The position numbers and the translations under genes are program-made. Shown piece by piece: positions 30,373-39,330 of a stretch of 45,006 nt of DNA. How positions within the stretch are numbered: position 1 is the stretch's first letter; each line of letters starts with the position of its first letter. Location: assembly GCF_000787855.1 (NCBI RefSeq), contig NZ_BBPQ01000008.1, positions 33,132 to 78,137 on the forward strand. The letters run 5' to 3'. This DNA is from Streptacidiphilus anmyonensis (GTDB taxonomy: Bacteria > Actinomycetota > Actinomycetes > Streptomycetales > Streptomycetaceae). The notes under the pieces were generated by a model. It had not been told where the DNA came from and ran no database searches. It was given only the letters and a program-made list of their open reading frames with translations.

Positions 30373-31542
30373 TCAGGACAGGGCCTGGGCCAGGTCCTCG
30401 TACAGGTCCTCTACGTCCTCGAGGCCGACCGAGACGCGGAGCACCGACGCGTGCGGACGGGCCTCGGGCGCGACCGGGCGGTGGGTGAGCGAGGCCGGGT
30501 GCTGGATCAGGGTGTCCACGCCGCCGAGCGAGACCGCGTGGGTGATCAGCCGGCAGCGCTCGGCCGCACGCGCGGCCGCGTCGAACCCGCCGCCGAGGGA
30601 GAAGGCGAGCACCGAGCCCGGCGCGGACTGCTGCCGCCCGATCAGGCCGAGGGGGTCGCAGTCCGGCAGGCCGGGGTAGAAGACGCGGTCGACGCCGGGC
30701 TGCCCCGCGAGCCACAGGGCCAGCTTGCCCGCGCCCTCGGACTGGTGACGCACCCGCAGCGGCAGGGTCTGCAGGCCGCGGTGGAGCAGGTAGGCGGAGA
30801 GCGGGTGCAGGATGCCGCCGGTGACGGCGCGCACCGGGCGGATCTTCCGGGCCCAGACGTCGCTGGTGGCGACGACGCCGGCGAGGACGTCGCCGTGGCC
30901 GCCGAGGTACTTCGTCGCGCTGTGCACGACGATCGTGGCGCCGTGCCGGATCGGCTGCTGGAGCACGGGCGTGGCGAAGGTGTTGTCGACCAGCAGCGGG
31001 ACCTCGCCGCAGCGGGCGGCCAGCGCGGCGAGGTCGACGAGCTCCAGGGTCGGGTTGGCCGGGGTCTCCACGACGACCAGGCCGGTGTCCGGGCGGATCG
31101 CGGCCTCGACGTCCTCCGCCGTCGCCCAGGTGACCTCGGTGCCGAGCAGGCCCGTGGCGAGCAGGTGGTCGCTGCCGCCGTAGAGCGGGCGGACCGCGAC
31201 GACGTGGCCCTTCCCGTCGGCGCGGGCGGCGAGCAGGCAGGCGCTGATGGCGGCCATGCCGGAGGAGAAGGCGACGCCGGCCTCCGCGCCCTCCAGCTCG
31301 GCGAGCGCCTGCTCGAAGCGGGCGGTGGTCGGGTTCCACAGGCGCTGGTAGACAGCGCTGCCGCCCTCGGGGATCAGACCGCCGGTCGCGAGCGACTCGT
31401 AGCTGTCGCCGCCGCTGCCGACGCCCGGCAGGGGGTTGGTCGTCGACAGGTCGATCGGGGGGACGTGCACGCCCAGGCCGCGCAGGTCGGTGCGGCCGGC
31501 GTGGACGGCACGGGTGTCGGCGCGGGTGGCGTCGGACAGCAT
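30373..31542 (-). CDS. Cystathionine gamma-lyase/synthase-family PLP enzyme
   Basis: A 389-residue cytosolic PLP enzyme of the Cys/Met metabolism family. The PLP lysine is in SATKYLGGHGDVLAG, the cofactor phosphate region is AFSSGMAAISACLLA, and VVVETPANPTLELVDLAAL with VDNTFATPVLQQP is typical. The ending SVGLEDVEDLYEDLAQAL matches gamma-lyases and gamma-synthases, which interconvert cystathionine, cysteine and homocysteine. Lyase against synthase cannot be settled from sequence; the neighbouring Lrp-type regulator would fit catabolic control. ATG at 31542 has GAGGAGG seven bases before. Confidence 0.88.
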   Translation of the reverse strand: MLSDATRADTRAVHAGRTDLRGLGVHVPPIDLSTTNPLPGVGSGGDSYESLATGGLIPEGGSAVYQRLWNPTTARFEQALAELEGAEAGVAFSSGMAAISACLLAARADGKGHVVAVRPLYGGSDHLLATGLLGTEVTWATAEDVEAAIRPDTGLVVVETPANPTLELVDLAALAARCGEVPLLVDNTFATPVLQQPIRHGATIVVHSATKYLGGHGDVLAGVVATSDVWARKIRPVRAVTGGILHPLSAYLLHRGLQTLPLRVRHQSEGAGKLALWLAGQPGVDRVFYPGLPDCDPLGLIGRQQSAPGSVLAFSLGGGFDAAARAAERCRLITHAVSLGGVDTLIQHPASLTHRPVAPEARPHASVLRVSVGLEDVEDLYEDLAQALS

Positions 31543-31702
31543 GGGGAGTCCTCCTCGTCGAGGGCTGTGGAGCCGGACGGCCCAGGTCGGGGCCGCGGCG
31601 GTGCCCCCACAATGAAGATCCGACGCATTCGACGCCACAGTTCCGCAGAAGATTCGGATTCCCCGCGTCCCGTTGTGTACTTGTTCGGGCTCGGCGGGCA
31701 CG

Positions 31703-32182
31703 ATGGGCCCTGTGCCGAAGAATCCGCAGCCCGCGCTCGCGCCCGTGGACCGCGCCATCCTGCGCCTGCTGGCGCAGGACGCGCGGATGCCGAACAACGC
31801 GATCGCGGAGGCGGTCGGCATCGCACCGTCCACCTGTCTGACGCGGATGCGCGTGCTGCGCGAGCGGGGGGTCATCCGCGGCTTCCACGCCGACGTCGAC
31901 CCGGCCGCGCTGGGGCTCGGCATCCAGGCGATGATCGCGGTACGGCTGCACGCCCACACCAAGGAGCGGATCTCCAGCTTCACCGCCGAGATCCCCCGCC
32001 TGCCGGGCGTCATCGCGGCCTACCACCTCTCCGGCGCGGACGACTACCTGCTCCACGTCGCCGTCCCGGACACCGACGCGCTTCGCGACTTCGTGCTGGA
32101 CCACCTGACCGCGCACCCGGCGGTCGCCCACACCGAGACCAGCCTCATCTTCGGCCACATGCGCGGCGAGGCCGTCACCTGA
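31703..32182 (+). CDS. Lrp/AsnC-family regulator
   Basis: A 159-residue regulator with an N-terminal winged helix (LRLLAQDARMPNNAIAEAVG, then IAPSTCLTRMRVLRERGVIRGF) and a C-terminal RAM domain for amino-acid sensing and oligomer assembly (IQAMIAVRLHAHTKERI, GVIAAYHLSGADDYLLHVAV). It is divergent from the cystathionine gamma-lyase-like gene with a 160-bp gap that carries GAAGATCCG and GAAGATTCGG, so it probably controls that gene in response to an amino acid. ATG at 31703 is used; GTG at 31712 is also possible. No strong ribosome site is seen. Confidence 0.88.
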   Translation: MGPVPKNPQPALAPVDRAILRLLAQDARMPNNAIAEAVGIAPSTCLTRMRVLRERGVIRGFHADVDPAALGLGIQAMIAVRLHAHTKERISSFTAEIPRLPGVIAAYHLSGADDYLLHVAVPDTDALRDFVLDHLTAHPAVAHTETSLIFGHMRGEAVT

Positions 32183-33095: not shown

Positions 33096-34472
33096 GTGAC
33101 CTCAACTCTGGCCTCTGCCAAGGGAACCACGACCACGGCGCAGCCGGCGGGCCCGCGCGGGCTGCCGCTGCTGGGCAACCTGCCCGCCTTCGCCCGCGAT
33201 CCGCTGGCCTTCTTCTGCCGCCTGCGCGACGAGTACGGCGACTGGGCGTCATGGCGGCTCGGCCCCAGGCCCTGCCTGTTGATCTCCCGGCCCGAGGAGG
33301 TCAACGAGCTGCTGGCGGGTGTCGAAGTCACCTTCAGTCCCTCCGAGTTGGGCTGGGCCCTGCACCACGTCCTCGGCCAGGGCGTGGTCACCAGCACCGG
33401 GGACGACTGGCGCCGCAAGCGCTCGCTGGTGCAGCCGTCGGTCCGGCCCCGGCAGGTCCGCTCCTACGCGGCGACGATGGTCGAGTGCGCCGACGCGGTC
33501 GCGTCGTCCTGGCGGGACGGCCAACGTGCGGACGTGCAGCAGGAGATGACCCGCCTGACGCAGCGGGTCGCGGTCCGCACGCTGTTCGGGGTGGAGACCG
33601 CCGGCCGCGAGGAGACCATCGCCAGGGCGATGGCGGTGGCGCAGCAGGAGATCGGCGCGGAGCTGCGCGGCGTCACCGTCTTCTTCCCGGCCTGGGCGCC
33701 GACTCCCGGGCGTCGCCGACTCCGCGTCGCCGTGGCCGAGTTGGACGCTGAGATCCACCGCATCATCGAGGAGCACCACGCCGCGCGGGCGGCGGGCGAG
33801 GAACGCGACGACCTGCTCAGCCGCCTGCTCGCCGCTCGCGACGAGACGGGCGCGCCGCTGTCGGACCGGGAGCTGCGTGACGAGGCCGTCACCCTCTACA
33901 TCGGCGGCCACGAGACCACCTCCACCACCCTGACCTGGGCCTGGCACCTGCTGTCCGGGGCGCCCGAGGCCCGTGCCCGCCTGGACGCGGAGCTCACCGA
34001 GGTCCTGGACGGCCGGCTGCCCACCTTCGACGACTACGCGCGGCTGCCGTTCACGCAGGCGGTGGTCAAGGAGTCGCTGCGGCTCTTCCCGCCGATCTGG
34101 CTGATCAGCGCGGTCGCGCGGGAGGGCGCGCGCCTGGGCGGCCGTGAGGTGCCGACCGGCACGACGGTCTGGACGAGCCAGTGGTCCGTGCACCGCGACC
34201 CCCGCCTCTACCCCGAGCCGGACGCCTTCCGTCCGCAACGCTGGGACCCCGACGCCCCGATCCCCGTCCCCGACCACGCCTGGTTCCCCTTCGGCGGCGG
34301 CCCCCGCACCTGCCTGGGGACGCGCTTCGCCCTGGTGGAGGCGGCCCTGGTGCTGGCCGTGCTGGCGCAGAGGTGGCGGGTGGAGACCGATCCGGGCGAG
34401 GTGAAGCCCTTCACGGGGCTGACCCTCCAGCCCTCCAGCCCGATCCGGGCGACACTGCGCTCCCGCGGCTGA
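33096..34472 (+). CDS. Cytochrome P450
   Basis: A 458-residue heme monooxygenase needing a ferredoxin system that is not encoded nearby. The I-helix oxygen motif is YIGGHETTSTT (Glu273-Thr274), the K-helix ExxR is ESLR (326-329) and the heme-ligand loop is FPFGGGPRTCLG with Cys406. The N-terminus (PRGLPLLGNLPAFARDPLAFF) has the proline-rich entry typical of CYP4/CYP102-like bacterial P450s. The start is GTG at 33096 with no good ribosome site, so it may be leaderless. It converges on the DUF3050-CDPS-ligase operon with 35 bases between stops. I infer it could oxidise the cyclodipeptide product, but membership in the cluster is not proven. Confidence 0.92.
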   Translation: MTSTLASAKGTTTTAQPAGPRGLPLLGNLPAFARDPLAFFCRLRDEYGDWASWRLGPRPCLLISRPEEVNELLAGVEVTFSPSELGWALHHVLGQGVVTSTGDDWRRKRSLVQPSVRPRQVRSYAATMVECADAVASSWRDGQRADVQQEMTRLTQRVAVRTLFGVETAGREETIARAMAVAQQEIGAELRGVTVFFPAWAPTPGRRRLRVAVAELDAEIHRIIEEHHAARAAGEERDDLLSRLLAARDETGAPLSDRELRDEAVTLYIGGHETTSTTLTWAWHLLSGAPEARARLDAELTEVLDGRLPTFDDYARLPFTQAVVKESLRLFPPIWLISAVAREGARLGGREVPTGTTVWTSQWSVHRDPRLYPEPDAFRPQRWDPDAPIPVPDHAWFPFGGGPRTCLGTRFALVEAALVLAVLAQRWRVETDPGEVKPFTGLTLQPSSPIRATLRSRG

Positions 34473-34473
34473 C

Positions 34474-34502
34474 GGTCGGCGCCCCCGCGGGGGGCGCCGA
34501 CC
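34474..34502. terminator. Terminator between P450 and DUF3050 genes
   Basis: GGTCGGCGCCCC/GGGGCGCCGACC forms a 12-bp perfect stem directly after the P450 stop and six bases before the DUF3050 stop, serving both convergent transcripts. Confidence 0.85.
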
Positions 34503-34507
34503 CGGCG

Positions 34508-35317
34508 TCAGACCGCCTCGCCGACGGGCTCCTCGGCGTGGAGTTCCGCCACGATCCCGTCCCACAGGGCACGGCGCGCCCGCATGGCCGTGCGGACCGT
34601 CTCGGCGCACTCGCGCCACTTGGCCTCGTCGTCGCCGCACAGATCCGCCAGCATGGCCATGGCCATGGGGGTGTGCTCCTCGCCGTCGACCTCGATGTGG
34701 CGGGCGAGGTAGTCGCGGAAGGTGGCGAGGCGGCCGCCCTGGTCGTCGATCCTGACGATCTGGTCGAACATCTCGGGGATCAGGTCCTCGCGCCCGAAGG
34801 CGAAGGCCGCGGCCTGGCAGTGGACGGGTGCGGCCTCCACGAAGTTCCAGGTGGCGTTGACGAAGTCGGCCGCGGCCGCCGGAACGCACGCCGTCCTGAG
34901 GGCGGAACGGACGTCCTCGCCCGCGCGGACGCGGGCGAGGAACGTCTCGATCGGTCCGGTGTCGGCTCCGGCCTGGGCCATGCCGTCGAGGTACAGCTCG
35001 AAGTGGCTGATGAAGCCGTCGCCCAGCGCGTCGCTCTCCTCGACCAGGACGATGTCGTTGATCAGCCGGCGGCTCTCGGAGGAGCCCCGCGGCACCCACG
35101 GGACATCGACGCAGGTGAGCTCGCGCTGGAGGGCCTTGAGGAGGGACATGAAGTCCCAGACGGCGAAGACGTGGTTCTCGGTGAAGGTGTTGACGTCCCG
35201 GAGGGTGGTCAGGCATCGGTACACCGGGTGGCCGGTCACCTCCGAACGGGCGGCCGACACGGCGGCCCGCAGTTCGTCGATCGCGGGGTTCTGCTTGCCC
35301 CAGTCGTAACGTGACAT
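34508..35317 (-). CDS. DUF3050 protein, putative heme-oxygenase-like metal oxidase
   Basis: A 269-residue protein I recognise as DUF3050 by [17 protein letters not shown] (49-65), [28 protein letters not shown] and [15 protein letters not shown]. The fold is expected to be the all-helical heme-oxygenase-like one. Candidate metal ligands fall where diiron members (HDO family such as SznF, CADD) keep theirs: Glu48/His49 on an early helix, Glu93/Glu94 and His105 on the next, and His207, Asp211 and His215 in HIEVDGEEH. This spacing resembles but does not copy the known HDO set. ATG at 35317 has AGGAG six bases before. It is the third gene of the ligase-CDPS operon, 29 bases after the CDPS stop. 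I infer O2-dependent tailoring of the dipeptide or its precursor. Confidence 0.78.
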
Positions 35318-35346
35318 GGTGCTCTCCTGAATATCGATGCCCGGGT

Positions 35347-36075
35347 TCAGACGGGCCGGACGGGGCGGATGGTGGCGTAGGCCTGCCGTGGCGACGGCTG
35401 GATCAGGCACTTCCCGGTGAAGAGCAGCTCCGCCAGCGGAAGCGGCCGGTGATAGAAGTTCAACGACGTGGGAGCGTCGAAGATGTCGGCGGACGCCAGG
35501 AAGAACGGCAGTTCCGCCACGAGGTAGCCCATGGCGCGGGCGATGGTGCCGTCGGTGTGCGGCCCTTGGCTGCCCCGGGCGGCGAGCACCTCCCGGCTCA
35601 TGTCCGCGCACGTCTCCCAGAGCGCGTCGTCCTCGGCCAGCGCCTTCTCGCACTCGGCGAGCCGCTCTCGGTAGACGTCGTTGGACTCCAGCTGCGACAT
35701 CCGGTGCAGGCCGTCCTCGGGCCTCGGTCCGCCACGCTCGCGCCAGGCGCGCGTGACCCGGTTGACCAGGGCGTTGATCTCGCCCCTGGTCTTCTTCGCC
35801 GCGCGGGCGGGGTCGTGACCCAGCGCCAGGAAGGTCTGCTCCAGGGCCGAGTCCGGGATGACGACGTCGACGCGGGCGAACTCGTCACAGAGCCAGCCGA
35901 GCAGAGCCGTCAGCCTGGGCACGCTGAAGTAGCTGTTGCCGGGGCTCACACCCACGACCACGTGCTGCCGCTGCTCCCAGACCGCGCGGCAGGCCTCGGT
36001 GAACGGTTCGACCGTGAACGGCCCCTGGACGACCGGCGATCCGCTCCGGTCGACCGCACTCCCCCGTGCGGTCAT
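35347..36075 (-). CDS. Cyclodipeptide synthase (AlbC-like, NYH subfamily)
   Basis: A 242-residue enzyme that would take two aminoacyl-tRNAs and form a 2,5-diketopiperazine without a ribosome or NRPS. It aligns by eye with AlbC (239 residues): [11 protein letters not shown] carries nucleophile Ser44 (AlbC Ser37) and Asn47 (Asn40). YLVAE carries Tyr184 and Glu188 (Tyr178, Glu182). FYH gives Tyr208-His209 (Tyr202-His203), the mark of the NYH subfamily. The basic stretch [26 protein letters not shown] (about 90-115) suits the tRNA-binding helix. The ATG at 36075 overlaps the ligase stop as TGATG, implying coupling; ATG at 36084 would add three residues. The two amino acids used cannot be told from sequence alone. 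Confidence 0.92.
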
Positions 36076-37706
36076 CAGGTCCATCGCCCCGAGCCGACGT
36101 GGTCGGCGTCGCCGAGATACCGCCGGCGGAGCTCCTCCCGGAGGATCTTCCCGGTGCCCGTGCGCGGCATGTCCTTGAAGGCGATCACGATCGGCTCGGC
36201 CAGTTCGGGCAGCCCTCGGACGGCCTCCTCCCAGAGCTCCCTGCCCAGTTGGCCCTCCGGGGTGGCGACGACGGGGACCGGCGGCTGGTCCGGCACCGTG
36301 AGCAGCGCCACCTCGTGCCGTTCGGGGAGCCGGTCGACGATGACGTCCTCCTGCTCCAGGCAGCTGACACCCGGCGCGTAGTTGACCTCGCGGTCGAGGA
36401 GCTTCAGGGCACCGGTCCGGGTCTTGATCCCGATGTCGCCGGTGTTCCACCACTCACCGACCGCCTTCTCCTCCCAGCGCTCGGGTTCGCGGTAGTACCC
36501 GATGCAGCGTGCCTTGGTCCGGGCCAGGACGAGCCCCGGGCTGCCGTTCGGCACGGGCGCGAAGGTCTTCGGGTCCACGACCTTGAGCTGGACGAACCCC
36601 GGCATCGGCCGGCCCACCTTGCGCGGGCCCGGCTGCGCGTCGCGGCGCCGGTTCGCCCGCTGGCGGGTGATGAACGTCATCCCCATGCCGCCGGTCTCGG
36701 ACTGCCCGTAGCCCTCACGCCACAGCGGCATCCGGTGCGCGGAGGCGTTCAGGAAGGTGCGGACGGTGGACCAGTGCACGGCGTCGAAGTTGCTGATGAA
36801 CATCCGCACGTCGCGGAAGGCGCCGAAGCGCCCGTCACCGGCGAGCCCCTCCAGTTGGGAGAAGTCCACCGGCAGGGCCTCGATCACCGTCGGCCGGTAC
36901 TGCCGGAACAGCCGGCCGACGACCTCGGGGTCGCTGTCGCTCATCAGCAGGACCTTCGCGGGCGAGAGCGTCAGCACCGAGTAGATCCAGGTGAAGGAGC
37001 GGGCGTGGACGTAGGGCAGGAACATCGCCACGGTGTCGTTGCGCCGGAAGGTGATCGGCGGCAGGTGCCGGCATTCCAGCCGGGCCATCTCACCCTGGAG
37101 CTTCCTCGGGGTGTACATGATGAGCTTGGGAATGCCGGTGGTGCCGGAGGTGTGGGTGAGCATCATCAGCTCGTCGTCGCCGACCGGGTTCGGCGGCGGT
37201 TCCTCGCCGCCGCACAGGTCGGCGAAGGCCAGCGTGTCGGGCAGCCGGTCGTCCAGGCAGACGGTCCGCTCCGCGAACGAGACGAGCGAGTCCCCGTCGC
37301 TTCCGCGGCTCTCGAGCAGCCGGCGGTTGCTCACCAGCAGTTTGGCCTCGACCCGCTGGAGCAGCGCGCGCACGGTGTCGTGGGAGAGCAGGCCCGAGAG
37401 CATGACCGGCACCGCGCCGATCCGGACCCCGGCGGCGGCCAGCAGCAGGCAGTCGAAGTGGTTCTCCTTGTAGACGGCGAACCGGTCGCCGCGGCGCAGT
37501 CCGGCCGCGTGCAGCGCGGCGGCGGTCCTGCGGACCAGCTGGGCCATCGCCTCGACGTCGAGGATGTCCTGGCCGGTCGGATCGATGTCGAGTGGTCGGC
37601 TCAGACGGAAGACCATCGCTTTTCCGGCTTCCGCCCGGCGGTCGAAAAGAAGTCCCAGACTGGACTTCCACAACTGGAGATTGGACACGGATTCCCCCAT
37701 TGCCAT
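36075..37706 (-). CDS. ANL-superfamily AMP-forming ligase
   Basis: A 543-residue adenylating enzyme that activates a carboxylate as acyl-AMP, usually passing it to CoA, a carrier or an amine. Core motifs are THTSGTTGIPK (184-194), YGQSETG (333-339), TGD (422-424), Arg439 at the domain hinge and Lys520 in RTGTGKI, so it should be active. The segment after the hinge (VNYAPGVSCLEQEDVIVD) departs from the usual IKxxGxxVxPxEIE of acyl-CoA ligases. No carrier protein or condensation domain is nearby. It is the first gene of the operon, ATG at 37706 (37700 possible), behind the promoter at 37742-37771, and is coupled to the CDPS. It may acylate or otherwise modify the cyclodipeptide, or supply an acyl donor. 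Confidence 0.88.
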   Translation of the reverse strand: MAMGESVSNLQLWKSSLGLLFDRRAEAGKAMVFRLSRPLDIDPTGQDILDVEAMAQLVRRTAAALHAAGLRRGDRFAVYKENHFDCLLLAAAGVRIGAVPVMLSGLLSHDTVRALLQRVEAKLLVSNRRLLESRGSDGDSLVSFAERTVCLDDRLPDTLAFADLCGGEEPPPNPVGDDELMMLTHTSGTTGIPKLIMYTPRKLQGEMARLECRHLPPITFRRNDTVAMFLPYVHARSFTWIYSVLTLSPAKVLLMSDSDPEVVGRLFRQYRPTVIEALPVDFSQLEGLAGDGRFGAFRDVRMFISNFDAVHWSTVRTFLNASAHRMPLWREGYGQSETGGMGMTFITRQRANRRRDAQPGPRKVGRPMPGFVQLKVVDPKTFAPVPNGSPGLVLARTKARCIGYYREPERWEEKAVGEWWNTGDIGIKTRTGALKLLDREVNYAPGVSCLEQEDVIVDRLPERHEVALLTVPDQPPVPVVATPEGQLGRELWEEAVRGLPELAEPIVIAFKDMPRTGTGKILREELRRRYLGDADHVGSGRWT

Positions 37707-38021
37707 TCGGTTCCAACCGATTGGTCACGCGAATCGAAATCACCCTAGGTTCGCCTCGAACAGTCCGTCAAGGAGCCCGGAAAGGCACGGATACCATTGC
37801 TGGTGGGAATGCGAACCAAGAAAGATCCCATCCGGATGCGGAGGCCGGGTAATGGTGATGGGAATGGGCGGCGAACACGCAGTTCGACCGCCTGCGGATC
37901 CATCGCGGCTTGAGCCGCGTTCGAACGGGACTCGACCGGCGGGGCATGGGCGCTGGCCTCCGGGCGGGCATGAATGCGAAGGTGGCCGTGCCATCCGGCG
38001 TCATCACCACGAGGGGGACCC
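37707..38021. other. 315-bp divergent control region of the CDPS locus
   Basis: It separates the ligase and methyltransferase starts and is less GC-rich than its surroundings (for example AATGCGAACCAAGAAAGATC near 37808). It holds the operon promoter at 37742-37771. I found no regulator gene, and no clean palindrome. The methyltransferase promoter was not identified. Confidence 0.55.
37742..37771 (-). promoter_or_regulatory. Promoter of the ligase-CDPS-DUF3050 operon
   Basis: On the minus strand, TTGACG (37766-37771), an 18-base spacer and TAGGGT (37742-37747) make a good housekeeping-type promoter. The start point would lie near 37735, giving a leader of about 29 bases. Confidence 0.6.
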
Positions 38022-38747
38022 ATGACGCAGTACGACGAACTCGCCGCGCGTCTCGCCGACATCGAGAAGGCGATCCATTTCTATCGCGAGACCGTGGAAT
38101 TCCCGTCGTTCTTCGACGCCCTCGGAAAAGCGCGTGGAATGCGCGTGCTGGACGTGGGGTGCGGCGACGGCGTCTATGCGCGGAAGGTCGCACGGCAGGG
38201 CGCCGCGCAGGTGGTGGGGACGGATTCCTCCGCCGAGATGATCCGCCTGGCCGAGGCCGCCGAGGCCGAGGAACCGCTGGGAATCCGCTATCTCGTGCAC
38301 GATCTTGCGGCGATGCCGTCGCTGGGCGCGTTCGACGTGGTGGTCGCCGTCAACGTGCTGCACTACGCGGACGACCGGGGCGCGCTGGAGAGCATGTGCC
38401 GACAGCTCGCCTCGCAGCTCGCCCCCGGCGGGCGGCTGCTGGCCTACGTCGGCAACACCGAGTGCGACGCGGAGGCGGCGAAGGACTTCGGATTCCTGGT
38501 CGACCGGCCCGCCGACGCGCACGAGGGGGACGCCTTCACCGTCACCATTCCGGCGACGCCGCCGGCCACGGTCGAAGTCCGCTACTGGCCGGCGGCGAGC
38601 CTCCAACAGGCCCTGGAGTCGGCCGGGTTCGCCCGCGTCGACTGGGAGCCGATGGCTCACACCGCCGGCGACGACCCGCGCGCGGCCGGCCTCGACCGAC
38701 TGCTGAAGAACCCGCCCGGCCTGCTGCTGAGCGCCTACCTGGACTGA
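38022..38747 (+). CDS. Class I SAM-dependent methyltransferase
   Basis: A 241-residue methyltransferase. The SAM site is VLDVGCGDG (42-50), with the acidic adenosine contact in VVGTDSS (64-70), FDVVVAVNVLHYADD as motif II/post-I and LAPGGRLLAYV as motif III. The first 35 residues (MTQYDELAARLADIEKAIHFYRE in pieces) form helices of the type that cap the substrate. ATG at 38022 has GAGGGGG four bases before. It is divergent from the ligase-CDPS operon and most likely N- or O-methylates the diketopiperazine, as CDPS-linked methyltransferases do elsewhere. Its first third uses more A/T-ending codons than the flanking arg genes. Confidence 0.87.
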   Translation: MTQYDELAARLADIEKAIHFYRETVEFPSFFDALGKARGMRVLDVGCGDGVYARKVARQGAAQVVGTDSSAEMIRLAEAAEAEEPLGIRYLVHDLAAMPSLGAFDVVVAVNVLHYADDRGALESMCRQLASQLAPGGRLLAYVGNTECDAEAAKDFGFLVDRPADAHEGDAFTVTIPATPPATVEVRYWPAASLQQALESAGFARVDWEPMAHTAGDDPRAAGLDRLLKNPPGLLLSAYLD

Positions 38748-38790: not shown

Positions 38791-39330
38791 TCAGGACTGC
38801 GCCAGCCGCAGCAGGTACTGGGCCAGGTCCTGGCCGCCGTTCGGGTCGCGGCTGATGACCAGGACCGTGTCGTCGCCCGCGATGGTGCCTATGATCTCCT
38901 CCACCCCCGACTGGTCGATGGAGGAGGCGAAGAACTGGGCCGCGCCCGGCGGCGTGCGCAGCACCACCAGGTTGCCGGAGGACGTCGCGGAGACCAGCAG
39001 CTCGGCCGCCAGCCGGGCCATGCGGGTCTCCGACGCGGACTCCCCCATCGGCGCCAGCGGCGTCCGGTCGCCGCCCTCCGCCGGGACGGCGTAGATCAAC
39101 GCCCCGTCGGAGTTGCGGATCTTGACCGCGCCGAGCTCGTCCAGGTCCCGGGAGAGGGTGGCCTGAGTGACCGTCAGCCCGTCGTCGGCGAGCAGCTTGG
39201 CCAGCTGGCTCTGCGAGCGGACGGGCTGACGTGTGAGCAGCTCCACGATCCGCCGGTGGCGTGCCGTGCGCGTCTGCGGCAGCTGGGCCGCCGCGGACGA
39301 GGCCGGCGCGTCGCGATGGGGTTCGGTCAT
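38791..39330 (-). CDS. argR: Arginine repressor
   Basis: A 179-residue ArgR. The N-terminal winged helix ([49 protein letters not shown]) binds ARG boxes. The C-terminal domain forms hexamers and binds arginine through [22 protein letters not shown] and [16 protein letters not shown]. It is the last gene of argCJBDR, 14 bases after argD. Likely targets in this window are the boxes before argG and argC, so it should also control its own operon. ATG at 39330 has AGGGA ten bases before. Confidence 0.95.

Follow-up and report, generated by a model that had tools for sequence, protein, structure and literature searches.

A four-gene cyclodipeptide synthase locus of Streptacidiphilus anmyonensis with a candidate nitrite-activating ligase and a DUF3050 protein

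In the albonoursin, mycocyclosin and other clusters built on a cyclodipeptide synthase (CDPS), tailoring is carried out by a cyclic dipeptide oxidase or a P450. Here we describe a locus that has the CDPS core in common with them and differs in its tailoring enzymes. It lies in a 45,006-nucleotide stretch of the Streptacidiphilus anmyonensis genome (hereafter the window; RefSeq assembly GCF_000787855.1, contig NZ_BBPQ01000008.1, positions 33,132 to 78,137 of the forward strand), in which an AMP-forming (ANL) ligase, a CDPS and a DUF3050 protein are encoded on one strand beside a divergent S-adenosylmethionine (SAM) methyltransferase. The core is likewise shared with dmt1-3, where tailoring is described as the work of terpene enzymes. 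Judging by the relatives of its enzymes, we tentatively propose that the product of the locus may be an N-N-bonded, N-methylated cyclodipeptide.

The closest described system is that of Actinosynnema mirum, in which Amir_4627 yields only cyclo(Trp-Trp) by a tRNA-dependent pathway and Amir_4628 adds one or two methyl groups at the ring nitrogens (PMC4159871). Like the window, A. mirum carries a CDPS and a UbiE-type methyltransferase beside an acyl-CoA-ligase-like gene, and an acyl-CoA synthetase is listed in the key to the CDPS-cluster figure of that paper. The trio of ligase, CDPS and methyltransferase had been reported in 2010 in A. mirum and Streptomyces sp. AA4, together with the suggestion that aminoacyl-CoA is the CDPS substrate (PMC2922099). 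A linked, orthologous CDPS and methyltransferase of the A. mirum type are indeed present in the window, as judged via the congener A. pretiosum only (L045), whose ligase, CDPS and methyltransferase, in this order, are 72%, 64% and 70% identical to those described here. Thus, the core of the set is known and half-characterised; compared with the A. mirum system, the window adds the DUF3050 gene after the CDPS and has its methyltransferase on the other side, divergent. An earlier, sequence-only reading of this DNA had held the whole combination to be undescribed. For the trio this gives way to the 2010 report; for the DUF3050 protein it stands, as no report of a DUF3050 or heme oxygenase-like protein with a cyclodipeptide synthase was found in the open-access literature, within which DUF3050 is a new partner of the CDPS set.

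A tightly coupled ligase-CDPS pair

The CDPS matches domain PF16715 with 255.4 bits against a cut-off of 27. When it was aligned with 28 relatives, Ser47, Asn50, Tyr187, Glu191, Tyr211 and His212 were invariant in all 29 rows, in keeping with the sequence-only reading, which had called the catalytic residues intact. We take the catalytic roles of these six to be those they have in AlbC, YvmC and Rv2275, and from the residues we infer an enzyme of the NYH type.

Genome contigs were then scanned, and the best 80 of 213 relatives were examined as loci. In 22 of the 80, the CDPS is at least 51% identical to that of the window, and 18 of these 22 have a ligase directly upstream; no ligase above 83 bits was found in the other 58 loci. 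The ligase is 56-80% identical across the aligned CDPS loci (the copy in L046 is cut by the contig end), and the hosts of the 18 pairs belong to the Streptomycetaceae, Micromonosporaceae, Nocardiopsidaceae, Pseudonocardiaceae and Nocardiaceae. A CDPS tree of 33 rows has a branch (support 93/91) with all 14 rows lacking a ligase on the same side of it. Moreover, all 18 loci have a possible start codon with which ligase and CDPS would overlap by 10 or 4 nt, which suggests that the two are translationally coupled. Ligase and CDPS are therefore a tightly coupled pair.

The other two members are less constant. A methyltransferase lies nearby in 13 of the 18 loci. DUF3050 occurs in two of the 80, from Kitasatospora sp. 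MAP5-34 (L036) and Streptomyces sp. PH10-H1 (L037), and hence in three of 19 ligase-CDPS loci with the window included; the three DUF3050-linked rows do not form one group in the CDPS tree. In both L036 and L037 the order ligase-CDPS-DUF3050 is kept amid different flanks, so that the operon proposed by the sequence-only reading is real; the methyltransferase there follows DUF3050 on the same strand, whereas in the window it is divergent and on the other side of the set. Besides these four families, none was found in more than two ligase-CDPS loci (outside the Amycolatopsis loci, and with L055 uncalled). A DUF3050 protein (P0008) and a CDPS (P0134) also have their longest contig, of 8436 bases, in common, probably a further locus.

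The ligase and its nitrite-linked relatives

Ligase trees were built from 40-row and 36-row subsets, thinned from 65 rows plus CmaA6, with CreM absent; rows had been dropped in earlier rounds too (16, then ten more and four duplicates). In the 36-row tree, the clade of the window ligase forms a sister group (100/100) to CmaA6 and Tri17, nitrite-using enzymes that belong with CreM to the ATP-dependent diazotases or N-nitrosating enzymes. Asp308 and His185 are common to both groups, a signature derived in this analysis and not from print. In the alignment of the CDPS-locus ligases, Lys520 and Glu337 are invariant in 21 of 21 rows. In place of the CoA-ligase hinge, or A8, motif (K-D-x-I...G-x-N), the ligase has DREVNYAPGVSCLEQED, while ligases of its own genome are of the DRLKDMIISGGENVYSAEVE type. 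The resemblance to CreM, CmaA6 and Tri17 comprises the ANL fold, D308/H185 and, in the wider ligase clade, linkage to genes of the aspartate-nitrosuccinate (ANS) pathway; unlike those enzymes, the CDPS-type ligase sits in a separate clade and has no CreD/CreE alongside. The sequence-only reading had taken the ligase at face value, but its clade suggests activation of nitrite rather than of an acyl group, and the label is probably a misnomer.

Linkage was assessed in 249 genomes of the family, searched with the ligase (E 1e-50) and with the CreE-like protein from contig C82 of the same S. anmyonensis genome (E 1e-80); matches were obtained in 105 and 189 genomes, respectively. At most 4 (CreE) or 5 (ligase) first-look candidates were scored per genome, and at most 10 in a further search of the 249, so copies may have been missed and the linkage counts are lower bounds. 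Among the 98 of 140 listed ligase rows that are at 32-41% identity, at least 64 have a CreE-like gene no more than 20 kb away, and at least 31 have one within 2 kb (<1% expected). We also inspected 20 stretches from 19 genomes, picked mostly for linkage. Seven of them (L264-L267, L269, L270 and L275) have an unbroken run of CreD, CreE and a ligase-clade gene; in four more (L268, L271, L276 and L283) the ligase neighbours CreE, either in divergent orientation or with one gene in between. The ligase of L273 and one of those in L279 are the nearest outgroups of two unlinked groups and are themselves ANS-linked (forks 99/99 and 95/94 in the 40-row tree, 94/96 and 83/96 in the 36-row tree); thus, the CDPS-type ligase is bracketed by nitrite-linked relatives.

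Related enzymes turned up elsewhere. The S. anmyonensis genome holds a cremeomycin-like group (G000:C82, L251, 3610-9818) with an enzyme of the CmaA6/Tri17 family (matching CmaA6 at E 1.3e-85), next to which a Lyase_1/ADSL_C protein (CreD-like), a 661-aa FAD protein (CreE-like) and an O-methyltransferase are encoded side by side. Ligase paralogues at 44-46% identity occur in a conserved cluster (L029-L032) of three congeners and of this genome's contig C139, together with a UbiA prenyltransferase, an FAD amine oxidase and a methyltransferase (Pfam, L029) and, in some, DegT-type aminotransferases; the amine oxidase gene there overlaps that of the paralogue by 10 nt. Finally, PDB 9xb8, a structure solved as 'FadD', places in the diazotase clade in several trees, including the 40- and 36-row ones, so its FadD name may be wrong.

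The DUF3050 protein and the setting of the gene set

The best structural match of the DUF3050 protein is PDB 9vwb, which is titled HamA, though named just DUF3050 in its sequence listing. E93, H105, E177, H207, D211 and H215 are invariant, and all di-iron ligands are kept, by the ligand list given in PMC4520260. The copies of the window, L036 and L037 are 90-91% identical in three places with different flanks. HamA has been proposed for N-N chemistry. As described, the HamA/MgoB operons (fragin, mangotoxin and pvf) combine a nonribosomal peptide synthetase with an AurF-like N-oxygenase, whereas the window has a CDPS and an ANL ligase.

DUF3050 genes also keep other company. In 39 loci of the family (e.g. 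L170, L172, L176, L177, L203 and L227) their cluster includes a Tri17-like gene and, for the majority of loci, ketosynthases, HPPD-like and PhyH proteins and E1-dehydrogenase subunits (Pfam on L170). In L219, L243, L244 and L245, DUF3050 occurs with a ligase-clade gene and without a CDPS, possibly in an arylamine N-N pathway; the partners are an anthranilate/aminodeoxychorismate synthase-like fusion, a class IV aminotransferase and an FAD monooxygenase (by Pfam in L244, by clustering elsewhere).

The five genes that the sequence-only reading had placed at 33096-38747 are all present by Pfam matches (Table 1). Its P450, however, is a chromosomal neighbour. All 14 genomes from the genus, that of S. 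anmyonensis among them, carry argR, and in four congeners that do not have the set (G006, G008, G002 and G004) a P450 82-91% identical to that of the window lies 10 to about 175 bases from it; G009 and G012 have one other gene in between. Only in the window are the two separated by 4.3 kb, which hold the ligase, CDPS, DUF3050 and methyltransferase genes. Furthermore, no CDPS of the window type was found in the congeners searched (their CDPS matches are 30-38% identical, and three have none), and the four genes were therefore most simply inserted in this lineage. Given the adjacency to argR in the four congeners and the lack of any P450 match of at least 60 bits in the 80 CDPS loci, the P450 was ruled out as a pathway member.

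Table 1. Features of the gene set and its immediate neighbours (positions within the window)
Feature	Coordinates	Strand	Assignment
Ligase	36075..37706	-	AMP-forming (ANL), PF00501 E 2.2e-45; clade sister to CmaA6/Tri17
CDPS	35347..36084	-	PF16715 E 6.2e-76
DUF3050 protein	34508..35317	-	PF11251 E 4e-95 and Haem_oxygenas_2 5.1e-7; predicted heme-oxygenase-like di-iron oxidase (MgoB/HamA family)
SAM methyltransferase	38022..38747	+	Methyltransf_25 5.3e-20; probable diketopiperazine N-methyltransferase
P450	33096..34472	+	PF00067 1.4e-84; judged a neighbour, outside the set
argR	38791..39330	-	Flank of the inserted set
Ligase stop/CDPS start overlap, 10 nt	36075..36084	-	Read from sequence; probable translational coupling

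Downstream of the overlap, a 29-nt gap on the same strand separates CDPS and DUF3050. The methyltransferase start was set at an ATG that follows a purine-rich stretch; the mechanical open reading frame begins at 37974. Scans of the region for repeats, promoters and terminators gave nothing usable. Across the CDPS loci, genes were called with a home-made caller (L055 and L056 were not called) and part of the flanking genes was run against Pfam; SpoIIE, MASE1, aromatic amino acid lyase, AlkZ, IMS, Sua5 and other flanks vary between loci and were judged unrelated. The S. anmyonensis genome has a second CDPS (G000:C149:132376-133047, L034), 34% identical to the first and adjoined by a P450. At 30373-32182 of the window, a pyridoxal phosphate-type, cystathionine-synthase-like reading frame is divergent from an Lrp/AsnC-like regulator, as read from the translations only.

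Proposed pathway and rival explanations

As proposed, 34508-38747 would constitute a four-gene pathway between argR and the P450. By analogy with the A. mirum kin, the CDPS would use aminoacyl-tRNAs to build cyclo(Trp-Trp) or a closely similar aromatic cyclodipeptide, and the methyltransferase would methylate its ring nitrogens. The ligase would not be a CoA ligase: it would adenylate nitrite like CmaA6 and Tri17 and transfer NO to a nitrogen atom in the cyclodipeptide or its precursor, and the DUF3050 di-iron enzyme would oxidise that nitrogen centre or a side chain. The set may thus work in the manner of a CDPS pathway combined with an ANL enzyme of the nitrite-activating type and an oxidase of the HamA type, a proposal we hold with some reserve; given that the ligase lies outside the characterised diazotase clade and is without nitrite genes, the claim is limited to 'works like'. 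A broader version is more doubtful. It would have a tRNA-dependent route to N-N-bonded diketopiperazines, in which cyclo(Trp-Trp) is N-nitrosated or N-N-linked by the nitrite-adenylating ANL enzyme. In some of the loci, a di-iron oxidase of the HamA type would then oxidise the nitrogen group so formed. The products would be nitroso, hydrazine or nitrosohydroxylamine (metal-binding) cyclodipeptides, and the ligase clade, which in this family often lies beside CreD/CreE, would represent a second branch of the N-N enzymes that use nitrite.

A number of observations count against nitrite use, several of which would suit an ordinary acid-activating enzyme. The ligase is a sister, not a member, of the clade of characterised CreM/CmaA6/Tri17 diazotases, in trees whose ANL sampling is limited and did not deliberately include amino-acid adenylation domains. 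No CreE- or CreD-like gene was found in the window or in L035-L055. Among the matches listed, none of four CDPS-type rows is ANS-linked and at least one of 38 rows of the sister type (42-50% identity) is CreE-linked; a change of substrate may thus have taken place along this branch. Genome-level CreE was dropped as support for nitrite use: it occurs in 15 of 19 ligase-CDPS genomes, which is uninformative against a background of 189 in 249 genomes. Conserved differences also separate the groups, as 24 positions conserved in 17 nitrite-linked rows are differently conserved in 8 CDPS-type rows, and N306, W312, S313, G340 and T344 differ beside the shared motif. In sequence the ligase is not near Tri17, to which it is 24% identical (tenth of 16 within its genome), and it is 27% identical to 9xb8, which with 1ult makes up its best PDB matches by sequence. 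For the oxidase, HamA has been termed non-essential for hydroxylamine intermediates, an mgoB insertion mutant is described as still making mangotoxin, at somewhat reduced levels, and ANS linkage is also lacking for the Tri17-like genes that accompany DUF3050, with no CreD/CreE in the stretches scanned. Of the 19 ligase-CDPS loci, DUF3050 occurs only in the three named above, and the available text of PMC4159871 gives the ligase no role in A. mirum.

The ligase could instead activate an ordinary aryl or acyl carboxylic acid and acylate the cyclodipeptide with or without CoA, the methyltransferase N-methylating and the DUF3050 protein hydroxylating it. We regard this as a serious possibility, albeit a doubtful one. 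Besides the missing nitrite genes and the 24 differing positions, it draws on the Pfam AMP-binding match, on NCBIfam, where the best matches are mostly acyl-CoA ligases (among 25 listed, all far below cut-offs), and on Foldseek, which ranks the long-chain acyl-CoA synthetase 1ult first and CmaA6 second, with McbA amide synthetases high. The VIA structure ranking puts CmaA6/Tri17 first, and structure ranking alone, by VIA or Foldseek, is a weak guide to the identity of the ligase. Against it, the CoA-ligase hinge is replaced, and the tree and the signature residues tie the ligase to the nitrite enzymes. As no extra family recurs in more than two ligase-CDPS loci outside Amycolatopsis (with L055 uncalled), there is also no sign of a shared gene for making an acid or transferring an acyl group. 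It is unlikely, in our view, that the products are limited to cyclo(Trp-Trp) and its N-methyl forms, with a vestigial or regulatory ligase and DUF3050 as a recent passenger. The known products of the A. mirum kin and the rarity of DUF3050 would fit this, as would the five of 18 loci that have no methyltransferase nearby and none elsewhere in their genomes at E 1e-20; but the ligase is well conserved across the CDPS loci and keeps Lys520 and Glu337, and the DUF3050 copies retain every metal ligand and their near identity amid different flanks. The 2010 proposal (PMC2922099), extended to a ligase that feeds the CDPS aminoacyl-CoA or aminoacyl-AMP instead of aminoacyl-tRNA, would account for the constant ligase-CDPS coupling. 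It seems very improbable, given that the A. mirum pathway is tRNA-dependent, with no ligase mentioned in the available text of PMC4159871, and that the ligase groups with nitrite enzymes, in the trees as sampled above.

Taken together, we judge it likely, as the sequence-only reading had proposed, that the product chemistry goes beyond a simple methylated diketopiperazine. The proposed nitrite-adenylating role offers a testable function for the ligase reported beside a CDPS subfamily in 2010. If it is true, CDPS pathways would be linked with N-N bond enzymes, a further clade of candidate nitrite-activating enzymes would be named, and the locus would provide a compact four-gene system for assigning DUF3050.
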